From positions 317,830 to 381,829 of the forward strand of contig JAMLHB010000003.1 of assembly GCA_023957375.1 (NCBI GenBank): DNA of 64,000 nt, in the 5' to 3' direction. The notes beneath the pieces are model-generated. The model was not told the origin of the DNA. It made no database searches and saw only the letters and a program-made list of their open reading frames with translations. Positions 43,621 to 53,394 of this stretch are shown piece by piece. Origin of the DNA: Flavobacteriales bacterium (GTDB lineage Bacteria > Bacteroidota > Bacteroidia > Flavobacteriales_F > PHOS-HE28). Numbering within the stretch: position 1 is the stretch's first letter; each line of letters begins with the position of its first letter. The position numbers and the translations under genes were made by a program.

Positions 43621-45435
43621 ATGTACCGTACCCACACCTGCGGCGAGCTCCGCCTTGCCGATGCCGGTAAAACCGTGACCCTCGCCGGATGGGTCCAGCG
43701 CAGCCGCGCCATGGGCGGCCTCACCTTCGTGGACCTGCGCGACCGCTACGGCATCACCCAGCTCAGCTTCAATGCCGAACGCGACAAGGCCCTCTGCGAC
43801 CAGGCCAACGAACTGGGGCGCGAGTACGTGGTAGAAGCCACCGGCACGGTGAAGGAGCGCGAAAGCAAGAACAACAACATCCCCACGGGCGGGATCGAGT
43901 TGGTCGTCACGGAACTGAAGGTGCTCAATGCGGCCAAGACCCCCCCCTTCACCATTGAGGAAGAGACCGACGGCGGCGACGACCTGCGCATGAAGTACCG
44001 CTACTTGGACCTGCGCCGGGCCAACGTGCGCAAGAACTTCGAGCTGCGCCACCGCATGGCCATCGAAACGCGCAACTACCTCAGCGCACAGCATTTTTTG
44101 GAAGTGGAAACGCCCGTGCTGATCAAGAGCACGCCGGAGGGCGCCCGCGATTTCGTGGTGCCCAGCCGCATGCACCAAGGCGAGTTCTACGCGCTGCCGC
44201 AAAGCCCGCAAACCTTCAAGCAACTGCTGATGGTGGCCGGCATGGACCGCTACTTCCAGATCGTGAAATGCTTCCGCGACGAGGACCTCCGCGCCGATCG
44301 CCAGCCGGAGTTCACCCAGATCGATTGCGAGATGGCCTTCGTGGAGCAGGAAGACATCCTGCAGATGTTCGAGGGCCTGGCCAAGCACCTGTTCAAGTCC
44401 GTGCTGGGCAAGGAGTTCACGGAGCCATTCCCCCGAATGACCTACGACGAGGCCATGCGCAGCTACGGCTGCGACAAGCCCGACCTGCGGTTTGGCATGA
44501 AGTTCCAATACCTCACCCCGGCCCTCTCCCAAGGAGAGGGAGGAATGCCCCTCACCCCCGGCCCCTCTCCGGGGGAGAGGGGGGCTGATCTCGCAAGAGG
44601 CCACGGCTTCAAGGTCTTCGATGAGGCCGAATTAGTGGTGGGCATCAACGCCGAAGGCTGCGCGGGCTGGAGCCGCAAGCAGACCGATGCGCTGATCGAC
44701 TTCGTGAAGCGCCCGCAGATCGGGGCCACCGGCATCGTGTTCCTGAAGTGGACCGAAGAGGGCCTGAAGAGCACCGTGGACAAATTCTTCACCCCGGAAC
44801 AACTGCAACAGTGGGCTGAGCGCTGCGGCATGAAACAGGGCGACCTGCTGTGCATCATGGCCGGCAAGGCCGACAAGACCCGCAAGCAACTGAACGAATT
44901 GCGCCTGCACATTGGCGACCTCTGCAACCTGCGCGACCCGTGGACCTTCAGTCCGTTATGGGTAGTGGACTTCCCCTTGCTGGAACAGGACGAGGAAAGC
45001 GGCCGCTGGCACGCCATGCACCACCCCTTCACCGCGCCCAAGCCCGAGGATGCGCACAAACTGGAAAGCGATCCCGGCAGCGTGAAAGCCAACGCCTACG
45101 ACTTAGTGATCAACGGCACAGAGATCGGCGGCGGCAGCATCCGCATCCACGACCGCGCCTTGCAGGAGGCCATGTTCCGCGTGCTGGGCTTCAGCGATGC
45201 CGATGCCCGCGCCAAGTTCGGTTTCCTGATGGAGGCCTTCGAGTACGGCGCACCCCCGCACGGCGGCGCCGCCTTCGGCTTCGACCGCTGGGTAAGCCTC
45301 TTCGGCGGCCGCAGCGACATCCGCGAGTTCATCGCCTTTCCCAAGAACAACGCGGGCAAGGACGTGATGATCGACGCGCCCAGCCCGATCGATGCGGAGC
45401 AGTTGAAGGAATTGGGGTTGGAGGTGAAGGGGTGA
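43621..45435 (+). CDS. aspS: aspartyl-tRNA synthetase with internal palindromic insertion
   Basis: A 604-residue class II synthetase that charges tRNA-Asp. Order: OB-fold anticodon domain ([40 protein letters not shown]), class II catalytic core with motif 2 [18 protein letters not shown], a GAD insertion domain, and motif 3 [20 protein letters not shown] near the end. The start is ATG 43621, preceded by an AATCTTTG box at 43595-43602. Within the protein, after MKFQYLT (near residue 299), about 23 extra residues ([20 protein letters not shown]) are encoded by two palindromic repeat units. The family pattern [20 protein letters not shown] resumes directly after them. Confidence 0.95.
44512..44587 (+). 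repeat. two tandem REP-like palindromes inserted in aspS
   Basis: Two related units each start CTCACCCC(C)GGCCC. The first has stem CCCTCTCC / GGAGAGGG around 3 nt, the second CCCCTCTCC / GGAGAGGGG around 3 nt. They are translated as [11 protein letters not shown] and [12 protein letters not shown]. This wording is known from dispersed palindromic repeats in many bacterial genomes. The length keeps the aspS frame open. Confidence 0.85.
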
Positions 45436-48751: not shown

Positions 48752-48812
48752 GTGGCCGGTGGCCGGTGGCCGGTGGCCGGTGGCCGGTGGCCGGTGGCCG
48801 GTGGCCGGTGGC
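48752..48812 (+). repeat. 7-bp tandem repeat, (GTGGCCG) about 8.7 copies
   Basis: Eight perfect GTGGCCG units plus GTGGC. Each unit holds the palindrome GGCC. It is non-coding. It is a simple-sequence tract that could vary in length by slippage. Confidence 0.95.
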
Positions 48813-49155: not shown

Positions 49156-49632
49156 ATGAACGAGCAAGACGAAAAATTCCTGCGGGAAGCCATCACCATG
49201 GCCCGAGCAGGCATGGAGCGCGGCGATGGAGGCCCCTTTGGTTGCGTGATCGTAAAGGACGGCCTGGTGGTGGGCAGCGGCAACAACCGCGTTACCAGCA
49301 CCAACGATCCCACGGCCCATGCGGAGGTGGTGGCCATCCGTGATGCTTGTGCGAAACTGGGCTCCTTCCAACTGGACGGCTGTACGCTGTATACCAGCTG
49401 CGAGCCCTGCCCCATGTGCTTGGGCGCCATCTACTGGGCGCGTCCGGACCGCATCGTATATGCCGCCACACGGGCAGATGCCGCCGATGCGGGCTTCGAT
49501 GACCAGCTGATCTACGATGAGCTGCCTTTGCCGCCCAACAAGCGAAAGCTCCCCATGGAGCAACAGTTTGGCGCCGAAGCTATGCAAGTGTTCGTGGAGT
49601 GGAAGGGGCTGGAGGGAAAGGTGAAGTATTGA
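49156..49632 (+). CDS. cytidine-deaminase-fold nucleoside/guanine deaminase
   Basis: A 158-residue zinc deaminase. The zinc-binding and catalytic motifs are HAEVVAIRDA (His55, Glu57) and SCEPCPMCLGAIYW (Cys82, Cys85). GGPFGCVIVKDGLVVGSGNN precedes them. The AIYWARPDRIVYAATRADAA segment and the DDQLIYDELPLP stretch match the guanine deaminase (GuaD) subgroup better than the tRNA adenosine deaminase TadA. The enzyme would convert guanine to xanthine. The start at 49156 is set by the family pattern and by the -7 box; an upstream extension to 48904 is non-coding. It stands alone. Confidence 0.9.
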   Translation: MNEQDEKFLREAITMARAGMERGDGGPFGCVIVKDGLVVGSGNNRVTSTNDPTAHAEVVAIRDACAKLGSFQLDGCTLYTSCEPCPMCLGAIYWARPDRIVYAATRADAADAGFDDQLIYDELPLPPNKRKLPMEQQFGAEAMQVFVEWKGLEGKVKY

Positions 49633-49671
49633 GCACAGTGCGGCGATCTGATACTTGGGTCAATGGACTAA

Positions 49672-49724
49672 GATGGACGGGGTGGACCAGGGGCCGAATG
49701 GCACCCTGGTCCACCCCGTCCATC
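49672..49724 (+). repeat. perfect 21-bp inverted repeat (long hairpin)
   Basis: Arms 49672-49692 and 49704-49724 are perfectly complementary over 21 bp with an 11-nt loop, which itself can pair GCC with GGC. It lies 39 nt after the deaminase stop and before the tRNA terminator. It may act as a terminator without a U-tract, or be a small palindromic mobile element. Such length and perfection are unusual for a plain terminator. Confidence 0.85.
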
Positions 49725-49769: not shown

Positions 49770-49792
49770 AAAAAAACCCCGCTCTCGCGGGG
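49770..49792 (-). terminator. rho-independent terminator of tRNA-Gln
   Basis: On the minus strand GCCCCGC-type stem (49792-49787 with 49782-49777, 6 bp, loop GAGA) is followed by seven U residues (49776-49770). It lies 10 nt after the 3' end of the tRNA. Confidence 0.9.
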
Positions 49793-49801
49793 CTTCTTTG
49801 T

Positions 49802-49873
49802 TGGCCGACCAGGGCTCGAACCTGGACTCTTCTGAACCAAAATCAGACGTGTTGCCAGTTACACCATCGGCCA
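49802..49873 (-). tRNA. tRNA-Gln (anticodon UUG)
   Basis: A 72-nt cloverleaf on the minus strand. The acceptor stem pairs TGGCCGA with TCGGCCA. The anticodon arm is TCTGA-TTTTGGT-TCAGA with anticodon TTG at the centre. The T arm is CCAGG-TTCGAGC-CCTGG. CCA is present as the last three bases of the acceptor strand only by chance of the stem; discriminator and tail processing are not resolved. It reads CAA (and CAG by wobble). Confidence 0.95.
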
Positions 49874-50010: not shown

Positions 50011-53000
50011 ATGAATTTCAAGAAGCTGAACAACCTGACCGGCTGGTTCATTTTCCTGGTTGCCGCTTGGACCTACATCTCCACCATTGAGCCTACGGCG
50101 AGCTTTTGGGATTGCGGGGAGTTCATTGCCACGGCATACAAGCTGGAAGTGGGGCACCCGCCCGGAGCCCCCCTGTTCATGCTATTGGCCCGTTTGGCCG
50201 GTGCCTTTGTGTCTACGGAGAACGTCCCCGTTGCCGTAAACGTGCTCAGCGCCTTGGCCAGTGCCTTTACCATCCTCTTCCTCTTCTGGAGCATCACGCA
50301 CATGGCCTACTACCTGGCCGTTCGCAAGCAGGACGAGGAACTCACCCCGGGCAAGGTCATCGCCATCCTGGGCAGTGGCGTTGTGGGCGCATTGGCCTAC
50401 ACGTGGAGCGATTCGTTCTGGTTCAGCGCCGTGGAGGGGGAAGTCTATGCGCTCTCCTCGTTCTTCACCGCCATCGTGTTCTGGGCCATCCTCAAATGGG
50501 AACGCGAATCGGACAAGCCCCACAATACGCGCTGGCTGATCCTGATCGCCTACCTCATGGGCCTGAGCATCGGCGTGCACCTGCTCAACCTGCTCTGCAT
50601 CCCCGCCATCGCCTTCGTGTACTATTTCAAGAAATACACCGTCACCCGAAAGGGCATCATTTACACCTTCCTCATTTCGGCCCTGATCCTGGGCGCCATC
50701 CAGGCCGTGATCATCCCGGGGATCATCAAGGTGGCCGGCAAATTCGAACTGCTCTTCGTGAACGACTTCGGGCTGCCGTTCAACACCGGCACCTTGGTCT
50801 ATGCCGCCCTTATGATCGCCCTGATCGCCTGGGGCCTGTACCGCACTCAACAAAGCGGAAAAGTGGTGCTCAACACGGTGATCCTCGGCATCACGGTGAT
50901 CTTGGTCGGCTACAGCACCTTCGCCATGGTGGTGATCCGCAGCAAGGCCAACCCGCCCATCGACGAGAACAACCCCGAGAACGTGTTCAACCTGCTGAGC
51001 TACCTCAACCGCGAGCAGTACGGCGACCGCCCCCTGATGATGGGCCAGTTCTGGGGCAGCCAGTTGGCCAACCAGCGCGAGGATGGCAACCCGGTGTACA
51101 CCGCCGTGTGGAAAGTGATGAACGGCAACCGCGTAGACAAGACCTTGTACGATGGGTGGGCGGCGAAGCACTATGTGGAGCAAAGCCCGGACAAGGCCAA
51201 GCTGAAGATCAAGAACGAATACGTGATCACCGATGCGCGCAAGGGCACCGAGCCCGTGTACGACCCGGCCACCACCATGCTCTTCCCGCGCATGTACAGT
51301 TCGCAGGCCAGCCACATCGATGCATACAAGCAGTGGAGCAACTTCAAGGGGGTGGCCGTGCGCACCACCGATCGGGAAGGGAAGCCTACCGTGATCCAAA
51401 AGCCCACCCAGCTGGAGAATTTCCGCTTCTTCACCAATTACCAGGTGAACTGGATGTATTGGCGCTACTTCCTGTGGAATTTCGCCGGCAGGCAGAACGA
51501 CATCCAGGGCCACGGCGGCATCACCGACGGCAATTGGTACACGGGCATCAAGGCCATCGATTCGCAACGCTTGGGCAACCAGGACACCCTGCCGCCGAGC
51601 ATGACCAACAACAAGGGCATGAACAAGCTATTCCTGCTGCCGTTCATCCTCGGGCTGATCGGCCTGGTGTACCAGCTCACGCGCGACGTGCGCAATTGGA
51701 GCGTGGTCATGCTGCTGTTCTTCTTCACAGGCATGGCCATCGTGATCTACCTGAACCAGTACCCTTACCAACCCCGTGAGCGGGACTATGCCTACGTGGG
51801 CTCGTTCTATGCCTTTGCCATCTGGATCGGCCTGGGCGTATACGCGCTATTCGATGCGGCCCGATCCATCACCCGGCGCGAATTGCTCTATGCCGTGGGC
51901 GGAATCTTCGCCATCGCCGCCCTGAAATTCCTGGTGGAAGCCCTCTCCGGCGGAGATCACACGGTGTCGTTCAGCCTGTTCTGGATCGGCTTGGCCAGCG
52001 GGGCCGCCTGTGGCGTGATGTTCTTGCTGCGCAGCCTGCACAACGACCGCGCCAGTGCCGTGGCGGCCACCCTGATCGGGCTGGTGGTGCCCGTGGTGAT
52101 GGTGCGCGCCGAATGGGACGACCACAACCGCAGCAACCGCTTCCCCGCCCGCGACCTGGCGGCGGACTACTTGGAAAGCTGCGCGCCCAACGCCATCCTC
52201 TTCACCAACGGCGACAACGACACCTTCCCCCTGTGGTACGCCCAGGAAGTGGAAGGCATCCGCACCGATGTGCGCGTGGTGAACCTCAGCCTGCTGAACA
52301 CGGACTGGTACATCGACCAGATGCGGCGCAAGGCGTACGAGAGCGACCCCGTGCCCTTCAACATGGACCCCGCCAAGTACCGCCAGGGTACGCGCGACGT
52401 GGTGGCACTGATCCCCAATGAGAAGATCACCGGATACTTAGACCTGAAGCGCGCCATGGAGTTCGCCACGGACGACCGCAACCTGCAGCAGATCTTCCAA
52501 TTGGGCAACAAGGATGCCTACATCCCCGCCCAAAAATTCCGCATTCCGGCCGACAGCGCCTTCTGCTTCGGCCCACAAGGCATGCTTTCCGCAGCGGATA
52601 CCGCCGCCTTCACCGGCGCCTTGGAGTGGACCATCAACAAGCAGTACGTGCTGAAGAACCACTTCCTGATGATGGACCTGCTGGCCAACAATGACTGGAA
52701 GCGGCCCATCTATTTCGCCGTCACCACCGGGCCGGACAGCTACCTGGGCCTGCAGAACTTCTTCCGCTTAGAGGGCCTCACCTACCGCTTGGTTCCGGTC
52801 GCCGAAAAGGCCGCCACCCCTACCACGTATGGCAGCGTGGCCACGGACATCATGTACAACAATGTGGTGAACAAGTTCAAGTGGGGCGGCATGGACTACG
52901 GCCCGGGCGTGTATTTGGACGAGAACGTGCTGCGCATGACCACCAACCTGCGCCTGCAGATCGCCACCCTGGCCAGTGAGCTGGCGGCGGAAGGAAAAAA

Positions 53001-53394
53001 GGCCGAGGCCAAACAGGTGCTGGACCTCGCCCAGGCCAAGATGCCCGAGCACAATGTGCCTTACGACCGCATCATGCTCCCCATCATCGAAGCCTACTAC
53101 CAGTCCGGCGACACCGTCTCGGCCAACCGCCTCAACCAGCGCCTGTTCACCATCATGGACGAAAACATGGCCTGGTACCTCAGCTTGGACCCGGCGTTTG
53201 CCGAGCAGGTGGTGGACGACATGAACATCAGCCAGATGGTGATGGACCGCTTGGCACGGTCCGCGCAGATCAACGGGCAACAGGCCTTGGCCACCAAGCT
53301 CATGGCACGCGCGGCGGAAGTGGATACCCTCTACCAAATGAAGTTGGAGGACATTGCCACGCAGGGTACGCGGACCATCAAGGCGCGGTTCTGA
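50011..53394 (+). CDS. DUF2723 family membrane protein (GT117-like glycosyltransferase)
   Basis: A 1127-residue protein typical of Bacteroidota. The N-terminal DUF2723 domain shows TIEPTASFWDCGEFIATAYK and LEVGHPPGAPLFMLLAR, the signature that links it to protein O-mannosyltransferase-like (GT-C) enzymes. About a dozen helices spread over residues 10-690. A middle hydrophilic part has NQYPYQPRERDYAYVGSFYA and LFTNGDNDTFPLWYAQEVEG. The C-terminal ~170 residues are helical and TPR-like. It probably moves sugar from a lipid carrier in the inner membrane; the acceptor is unknown. It is coupled to the deacetylase gene by a 1-nt overlap (TGATG). Confidence 0.88.
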   Translation: MNFKKLNNLTGWFIFLVAAWTYISTIEPTASFWDCGEFIATAYKLEVGHPPGAPLFMLLARLAGAFVSTENVPVAVNVLSALASAFTILFLFWSITHMAYYLAVRKQDEELTPGKVIAILGSGVVGALAYTWSDSFWFSAVEGEVYALSSFFTAIVFWAILKWERESDKPHNTRWLILIAYLMGLSIGVHLLNLLCIPAIAFVYYFKKYTVTRKGIIYTFLISALILGAIQAVIIPGIIKVAGKFELLFVNDFGLPFNTGTLVYAALMIALIAWGLYRTQQSGKVVLNTVILGITVILVGYSTFAMVVIRSKANPPIDENNPENVFNLLSYLNREQYGDRPLMMGQFWGSQLANQREDGNPVYTAVWKVMNGNRVDKTLYDGWAAKHYVEQSPDKAKLKIKNEYVITDARKGTEPVYDPATTMLFPRMYSSQASHIDAYKQWSNFKGVAVRTTDREGKPTVIQKPTQLENFRFFTNYQVNWMYWRYFLWNFAGRQNDIQGHGGITDGNWYTGIKAIDSQRLGNQDTLPPSMTNNKGMNKLFLLPFILGLIGLVYQLTRDVRNWSVVMLLFFFTGMAIVIYLNQYPYQPRERDYAYVGSFYAFAIWIGLGVYALFDAARSITRRELLYAVGGIFAIAALKFLVEALSGGDHTVSFSLFWIGLASGAACGVMFLLRSLHNDRASAVAATLIGLVVPVVMVRAEWDDHNRSNRFPARDLAADYLESCAPNAILFTNGDNDTFPLWYAQEVEGIRTDVRVVNLSLLNTDWYIDQMRRKAYESDPVPFNMDPAKYRQGTRDVVALIPNEKITGYLDLKRAMEFATDDRNLQQIFQLGNKDAYIPAQKFRIPADSAFCFGPQGMLSAADTAAFTGALEWTINKQYVLKNHFLMMDLLANNDWKRPIYFAVTTGPDSYLGLQNFFRLEGLTYRLVPVAEKAATPTTYGSVATDIMYNNVVNKFKWGGMDYGPGVYLDENVLRMTTNLRLQIATLASELAAEGKKAEAKQVLDLAQAKMPEHNVPYDRIMLPIIEAYYQSGDTVSANRLNQRLFTIMDENMAWYLSLDPAFAEQVVDDMNISQMVMDRLARSAQINGQQALATKLMARAAEVDTLYQMKLEDIATQGTRTIKARF

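Follow-up and report, generated by a model that had tools for sequence, protein, structure and literature searches.

In the accessible parts of the published descriptions, REPs sit downstream of genes, in convergent or co-directional gaps and sometimes in ORFs (PMC3733652), and their copy number is usually above 100 (PMC2817692). GTAG REPs are thought to be moved by RAYTs, as stated in the consulted sections of three papers (PMC3733652, PMC2817692, PMC8266576). CGTC REPs and the Rickettsia palindromic elements have no known dedicated transposase and also occur in frame in genes, according to the available part of PMC3733652. The same part reports CGTC repeats in Bacteroidetes, and predicted elements have been tabulated for Flavobacterium species (PMC12306157, available in part). 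The 23S rRNA intervening sequence with its S23-protein gene is presented, in the portion of PMC4990558 consulted, as a small selfish element that RNase III removes from the RNA. REPs in Bacteroidota are thinly described in the literature, and no title on a REP family of the present genus was met. In the accessible portions of the literature on four-helix proteins together with intervening sequences or hairpins, we met no link to palindromes, and we claim no novelty for one. Four-helix-bundle (IVP-like) genes are common, and their role is not settled; a family of palindromes found both next to such genes and on its own would offer them a testable target.

The hairpin described here lies in a 64-kb stretch of DNA from a Flavobacteriales bacterium, analysed at its full length and called the window below. 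We consider this hairpin likely to be a solo member of a REP-like, genus-restricted dispersed family, with a four-helix-bundle gene as partner instead of a RAYT. The features of the locus are:

49156-49632, + strand: cytidine/deoxycytidylate deaminase-family gene (PF00383), with its stop 39 nt before the palindrome
49664-49668, + strand: extra TGGAC word just beyond the left arm, 10 nt from the next word
49672-49692, + strand: left arm of the palindrome, with TGGAC words at 49674-49678 and 49683-49687
49693-49703, no strand: 11-nt loop, with a further 3-bp stem inside as RNA
49704-49724, + strand: right arm of the palindrome, with GTCCA words at 49709-49713 and 49718-49722
49777-49792, no strand: separate short terminator hairpin with T-rich tails, kept in relatives next to tRNA-Gln
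49800-49873, - strand: tRNA-Gln (ttg), convergent with the deaminase gene

The original prediction, made from the window alone, had described a perfect 21-bp inverted repeat, and all 21 positions of the arms indeed pair (21/21, 100% complementary) across the 11 nt between them. The claim that such a structure is rare by chance was borne out as well, with an RNA fold of -57.1 kcal/mol, shuffled sequences averaging -27.6 (z -9; 0/200 as good). The hairpin is the longest of six inverted repeats of at least 16 nt with arms no more than 100 nt apart in the window. Various kinds of long palindrome are common here: 400 kb of this genome's real sequence held 28 inverted repeats of at least 13 pairs (one of them a plain G/C run), against three, none longer than 13, in a third-order Markov simulation of 400 kb. 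An imperfect inverted repeat of the CCCTCTCC type, with 19-nt arms that are 89% complementary, was observed at 44522-44581. In the Rfam search, the only match above the cut-off was the tRNA; the hairpin matched microRNA and other families below the cut-off.

The placement of the hairpin between convergent genes, as first proposed, is right for the deaminase gene (+) and tRNA-Gln (-) but not for the next protein gene past the tRNA, which occupies 50011-53394 on the + strand. The remark that the hairpin lies a little away from the deaminase end corresponds to the 39 nt behind the stop. On the other side of the deaminase gene, upstream of it, we also observed 8.7 perfect copies of the heptamer GTGGCCG (48752-48812).

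This position and the stability of the hairpin would suit a role dedicated to the deaminase mRNA, as its terminator or 3' stabiliser. No U-tract follows the palindrome on either strand, in agreement with the original prediction, so the hallmark of an intrinsic terminator (hairpin, then U-tract) is absent from 49672-49724, and a separate T-tailed terminator follows about 50 nt on. In 13 relatives, one genome per species, we inspected the deaminase-facing flank of tRNA-Gln; the junctions are too diverged to align, and G031 and G002 offered only 127 and 407 nt there, respectively, the G002 stretch with a run of N. A CCCCGC-type terminator was readable beside tRNA-Gln in 13/13, with one mismatch in G028. 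The deaminase adjoins tRNA-Gln in six of them (G005, G011, G012, G017, G022 and G028), and the window hairpin was absent from all six. Other hairpins occupy some of these junctions: an unrelated 18-bp perfect palindrome in G017, an 11-bp palindrome in G022 and, read by eye, CCTCAG...CTGAGG hairpins in G005 and G028. The suggestion of a strong structural terminator was thus weakened, as the relatives with this junction keep their terminators and not the hairpin, and we regard a dedicated terminator or stabiliser as very unlikely. Termination would probably occur at 49777-49792. Transcription of the deaminase 3' region probably yields the palindrome as a hairpin of about 24 bp, which may there hinder 3' exonucleases or reduce read-through. 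A nuclease-processed RNA hairpin at 49672-49724 is a possible candidate.

A search of the same genome with the arms, exact and with up to three mismatches, returned the window site and one three-mismatch match elsewhere, in non-hairpin DNA. This single-copy result is misleading, because a sequence-plus-structure (covariance) model built from 15 aligned copies finds eight places in this genome. The proposed check for further copies of the arms hence gave one copy by plain arm search but a family by the model; the case named as arguing against a mobile element, a single conserved genomic copy, was not found, given these eight related places and a site not conserved in the six relatives. A DNA search with 81 bases against 58 genomes (this one included) also hit similar hairpins at different sites in two other species. 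In the 15-copy alignment, six pairs had at least one change on both sides. Of 45 genomes of the genus, which we take to be PHOS-HE28, 21 contained matches to the model, at 61 places in all. A mirror-word control, made by reversing the strings of the model and equal to it in pairs (19) and information (1.15 bits per position), matched 0/45 of these genomes.

In a class-wide sample of 295 genomes, at least 11 of them genus members, searched under strict filters that scored few candidates per genome, seven genomes matched at E ≤ 0.001, of which six belong to the genus; outside the genus we found one weak match (33 bits), in a genome from another bacterial family. A scan of the whole collection matched the core palindrome in at least 117 stretches, with the records among the matches listed largely from Actinomycetota. 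The arms of the longest stretch run into unrelated sequence, and the collection-wide matches were therefore read as chance convergence. Two simpler patterns were rejected, GGTGGACC-N(0-30)-GGTCCACC and TGGACNGGGTGGAC, as their controls matched as many times as the real patterns in many genomes; TGGACNGGGTGGAC occurred as 10 opposed pairs 26-36 nt apart. Among the origins first put forward, a small palindromic mobile element came closest: the family is dispersed (21/45 genomes) and partly tied to a gene, and its movement is what we infer.

The anatomy and gene context of the repeat were tabulated for 38 of the 61 places. The anatomy table uses 21 of the 23 copies outside the model. G032:C282, probably a second assembly of G032:C177, was omitted from both tables and is counted among the 17 gene-linked places below; G062:C34, not matched by the model, was left out. 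The unit spans about 42-59 bp and reads (G/A)(G/A)TGGAC-NG-G(G/A)TGGAC-NN-GGTG-loop-reverse complement. In most of the 38 copies, the TGGAC words are 9 nt apart in both arms, starting at positions 3 and 12 from both ends. The words are fixed, and the linkers between them are paired but variable, with all four Watson-Crick pairs at positions 8, 9 and 17 and three at position 18. Word conservation is partly built in, because the copies were found by their words; the mirror control matches none, so it is not wholly built in.

TCG lies outside 12 of 76 stem ends (about 1.1 expected) and GTA outside eight (about 0.8 expected), at about five and three loci, respectively. As evidence for the family, these end motifs are weak because of the few loci, because just two copies, orthologous to each other (L240 and L222), carry them at opposite ends and because GTA belongs to a longer stem in L241 and L336. 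The window copy has neither motif.

Such a palindrome could instead have grown locally and without transposition, through slippage and template switching that made a perfect hairpin out of a short run of TGGAC words. That template switching can turn repeats into perfect hairpins is published, according to the available part of PMC8794818. An outer TGGAC-type word occurs in six of the 38 copies, and outer words stand at 9/76 ends against 2-3% expected per end, as local growth would predict. In 12 comparisons taken as orthologous, 24 pairs differ: six changes are doubly compensated, which template switching could have produced and which favours local growth, and one keeps the pair. At the other 17, pairing is lost in one copy (six times in a single comparison with an inserted base), which counts against the dispersed-family reading. 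The same words nevertheless recur at unrelated loci and the mirror words in none of the 45 genomes, which speaks against a purely local origin. Local growth also leaves unexplained the genus limit and the tie to one gene family.

In-frame copies were found in the linker of a PKS/NRPS-aminotransferase gene in the window genome, G019 and G031. This gene is present in 36 of 45 genomes, and its linker carries an ATGGAC variant hairpin in G032 and a tandem 9-nt array in G028, both in keeping with growth in place. Clean insertion at this linker was rejected: in 18 of 30 aligned homologues, an unrelated linker just two residues shorter takes its place, not a 48-bp gap. Taking all this together, we judge local growth improbable as the origin of the family. 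An MmeI-type gene carries further in-frame copies in the window genome and G065. A second in-frame palindrome was observed in the G065 gene (L284:1861-1930), read as HSGLDPESR.

With gene context assigned by a crude codon-usage gene finder, six of the 38 copies fall in genes and 32 between genes. The intergenic copies comprise 12 in convergent, 16 in co-directional and two in divergent gaps, and two with one neighbour unknown; the window copy counts as convergent because of its tRNA, which gives 13, 15 and two (n = 30). Compared with 400 kb of the window genome, convergent gaps are favoured (p 0.008), the nearest gene end is a stop in 24 of 32 copies (p 0.004), and the depletion of divergent gaps is not significant (p 0.10); these p values are too good, because a locus present in several species was counted once for each of them.

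In one flank group of 13 members, the palindrome adjoins a gene of about 200 codons. The proteins match TIGR04258 and TIGR02436 at E ≤ 0.001 in 12 of 12 cases tested, the first of them scoring 52 bits against TIGR04258 (four helix bundle suffix; cut-off 40). Matches to PF05635 (23S rRNA-IVP) were weak where tested, at 22-27 bits and below the cut-off of 33.8. Sequence and profile searches of solved structures with the four-helix protein gave no credible match, and a single-sequence predicted structure was all-helical, poor (pLDDT 55) and not used. Among 48 places examined (47 and the window), 17 in 13 genomes lie 27-83 nt from an aligned four-helix gene; at the other 31, the window copy included, no such gene was found near the palindrome. 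Shared ancestry explains most of this count, as the 17 places fall, by our reading, into about four loci, which we count as about four separate associations. Five genomes (G000, G001, G002, G028 and G031) share one upstream-type locus, situated behind an aldehyde dehydrogenase/MaoC gene, and most of the remaining ones belong to a single downstream-type locus. In G022, palindromes flank the gene on both sides, with the gene at 865-1470 of L222 between hairpins at 732-786 and 1499-1554. A 1.26-Mb sample of the window genome, one part of it chosen to contain the two known gene copies, held no strong relatives of the gene other than those two, which lie beside family members; a related 22-residue fragment was also detected there (E 0.001).

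The palindrome and gene together lie between copies of the upstream gene's 3' end at three loci, in G001, G002 and the window genome. We observed a cassette-like array of small genes behind the aldehyde dehydrogenase/MaoC gene (L328:2285-4458; G000:C1:683284-685457), separated by copies of about 27-30 bp of that gene's 3' end. Four such copies, interspersed with other small genes, were read by eye in the window genome; one of the cassettes consists of the palindrome with the four-helix gene. Similar in kind are repeats of the 3' part of tRNA-Gln with its terminator, seen beside the gene in G005, G017 and G002 (L007, L013 and L025).

The link to the gene allows another interpretation: the palindrome was originally a cis-regulatory or RNA-binding site of the four-helix gene, whose protein binds its own mRNA and other 3' ends, so that mobility beyond ordinary gene-block duplication is not needed. 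Upstream-type hairpins lie 27-79 nt from the aligned gene start and at a near-constant 35-41 nt in six loci, and fixed words with paired linkers suit a recognised hairpin. However, the linked hairpins are upstream of the gene in eight and downstream in nine of the 17 places, and the in-frame copies in the PKS and MmeI-type genes would be odd as regulatory sites. We therefore find a cis-acting origin unlikely.

Y1 transposases were also considered as partners. Y1 hits occur in 33 of 45 genus genomes, and only one of the 61 places lies within 3 kb of any of 111 hits in the same genomes, although contig breaks could hide some; a Y1 partner was rejected. This one place, G065:C290, is inside the MmeI-type gene, and a survey of 66 distinct Y1 neighbourhoods likewise gave one match of the covariance model, in L284. 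Elsewhere in the window genome (G000:C2:169084-172306), a Y1 hit (C2:170026) has palindromes with GCGTCCACGCTCGTGC-like arms on both sides and may be a RAYT accompanied by its REPs. A further candidate REP family consists of GAGACCTTGAGGGA...TCAAGGTCTC palindromes close to Y1 hits in L272 and L301.

Returning to the dispersed family that we prefer, its four-helix-bundle gene may be its partner. Like a RAYT gene with its REPs, gene and palindrome would make up a single mobile unit, or would have done so in the past; copies on their own, the window copy among them, would have been left behind or have spread in the gaps behind genes. Pairing of the arms may be kept by template switching during replication, by selection or by both. 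A more specific proposal, by analogy with RAYTs, is that a TIGR02436/TIGR04258-type four-helix protein works in trans, binding or moving the hairpins of the family, with solo copies non-autonomous. We put this forward tentatively and hold it doubtful; if true, the protein family of the 23S intervening sequence would own dispersed hairpins at gene 3' ends.

Compared with the known systems, the family shares with CGTC REPs and Rickettsia palindromic elements the lack of a known dedicated transposase and the in-frame copies in genes. It differs in its stem and its restriction to one genus, and no CGTC tag was found at the ends of the 38 copies. The likeness to the 23S rRNA intervening sequence (S23p/IVP) lies in the proteins, which match TIGR02436 and, weakly, PF05635. 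The linked copies, however, adjoin protein genes where looked at, not 23S rRNA, and most palindromes are solo; the window copy has no gene, and with PF05635 below its cut-off, we do not assign it to that system. The general features of REP-like elements are all present: a short hairpin-forming palindrome, several copies with a shared consensus and a mostly extragenic position behind genes. REPs generally exceed 100 copies, whereas the present family has few (eight in the window genome). An unpaired GTAG end tag is lacking at the window copy, and GTAG straddles the first stem base in six of 38 copies, from about three loci. Like GTAG REPs with their RAYTs, the family sits behind genes and in convergent gaps, with some copies in ORFs, and part of it flanks a small gene, the others being solo. 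The differences from GTAG REPs are the few copies, arms built of words 9 nt apart and, in place of a Y1 partner (RAYT), a four-helix-bundle gene.
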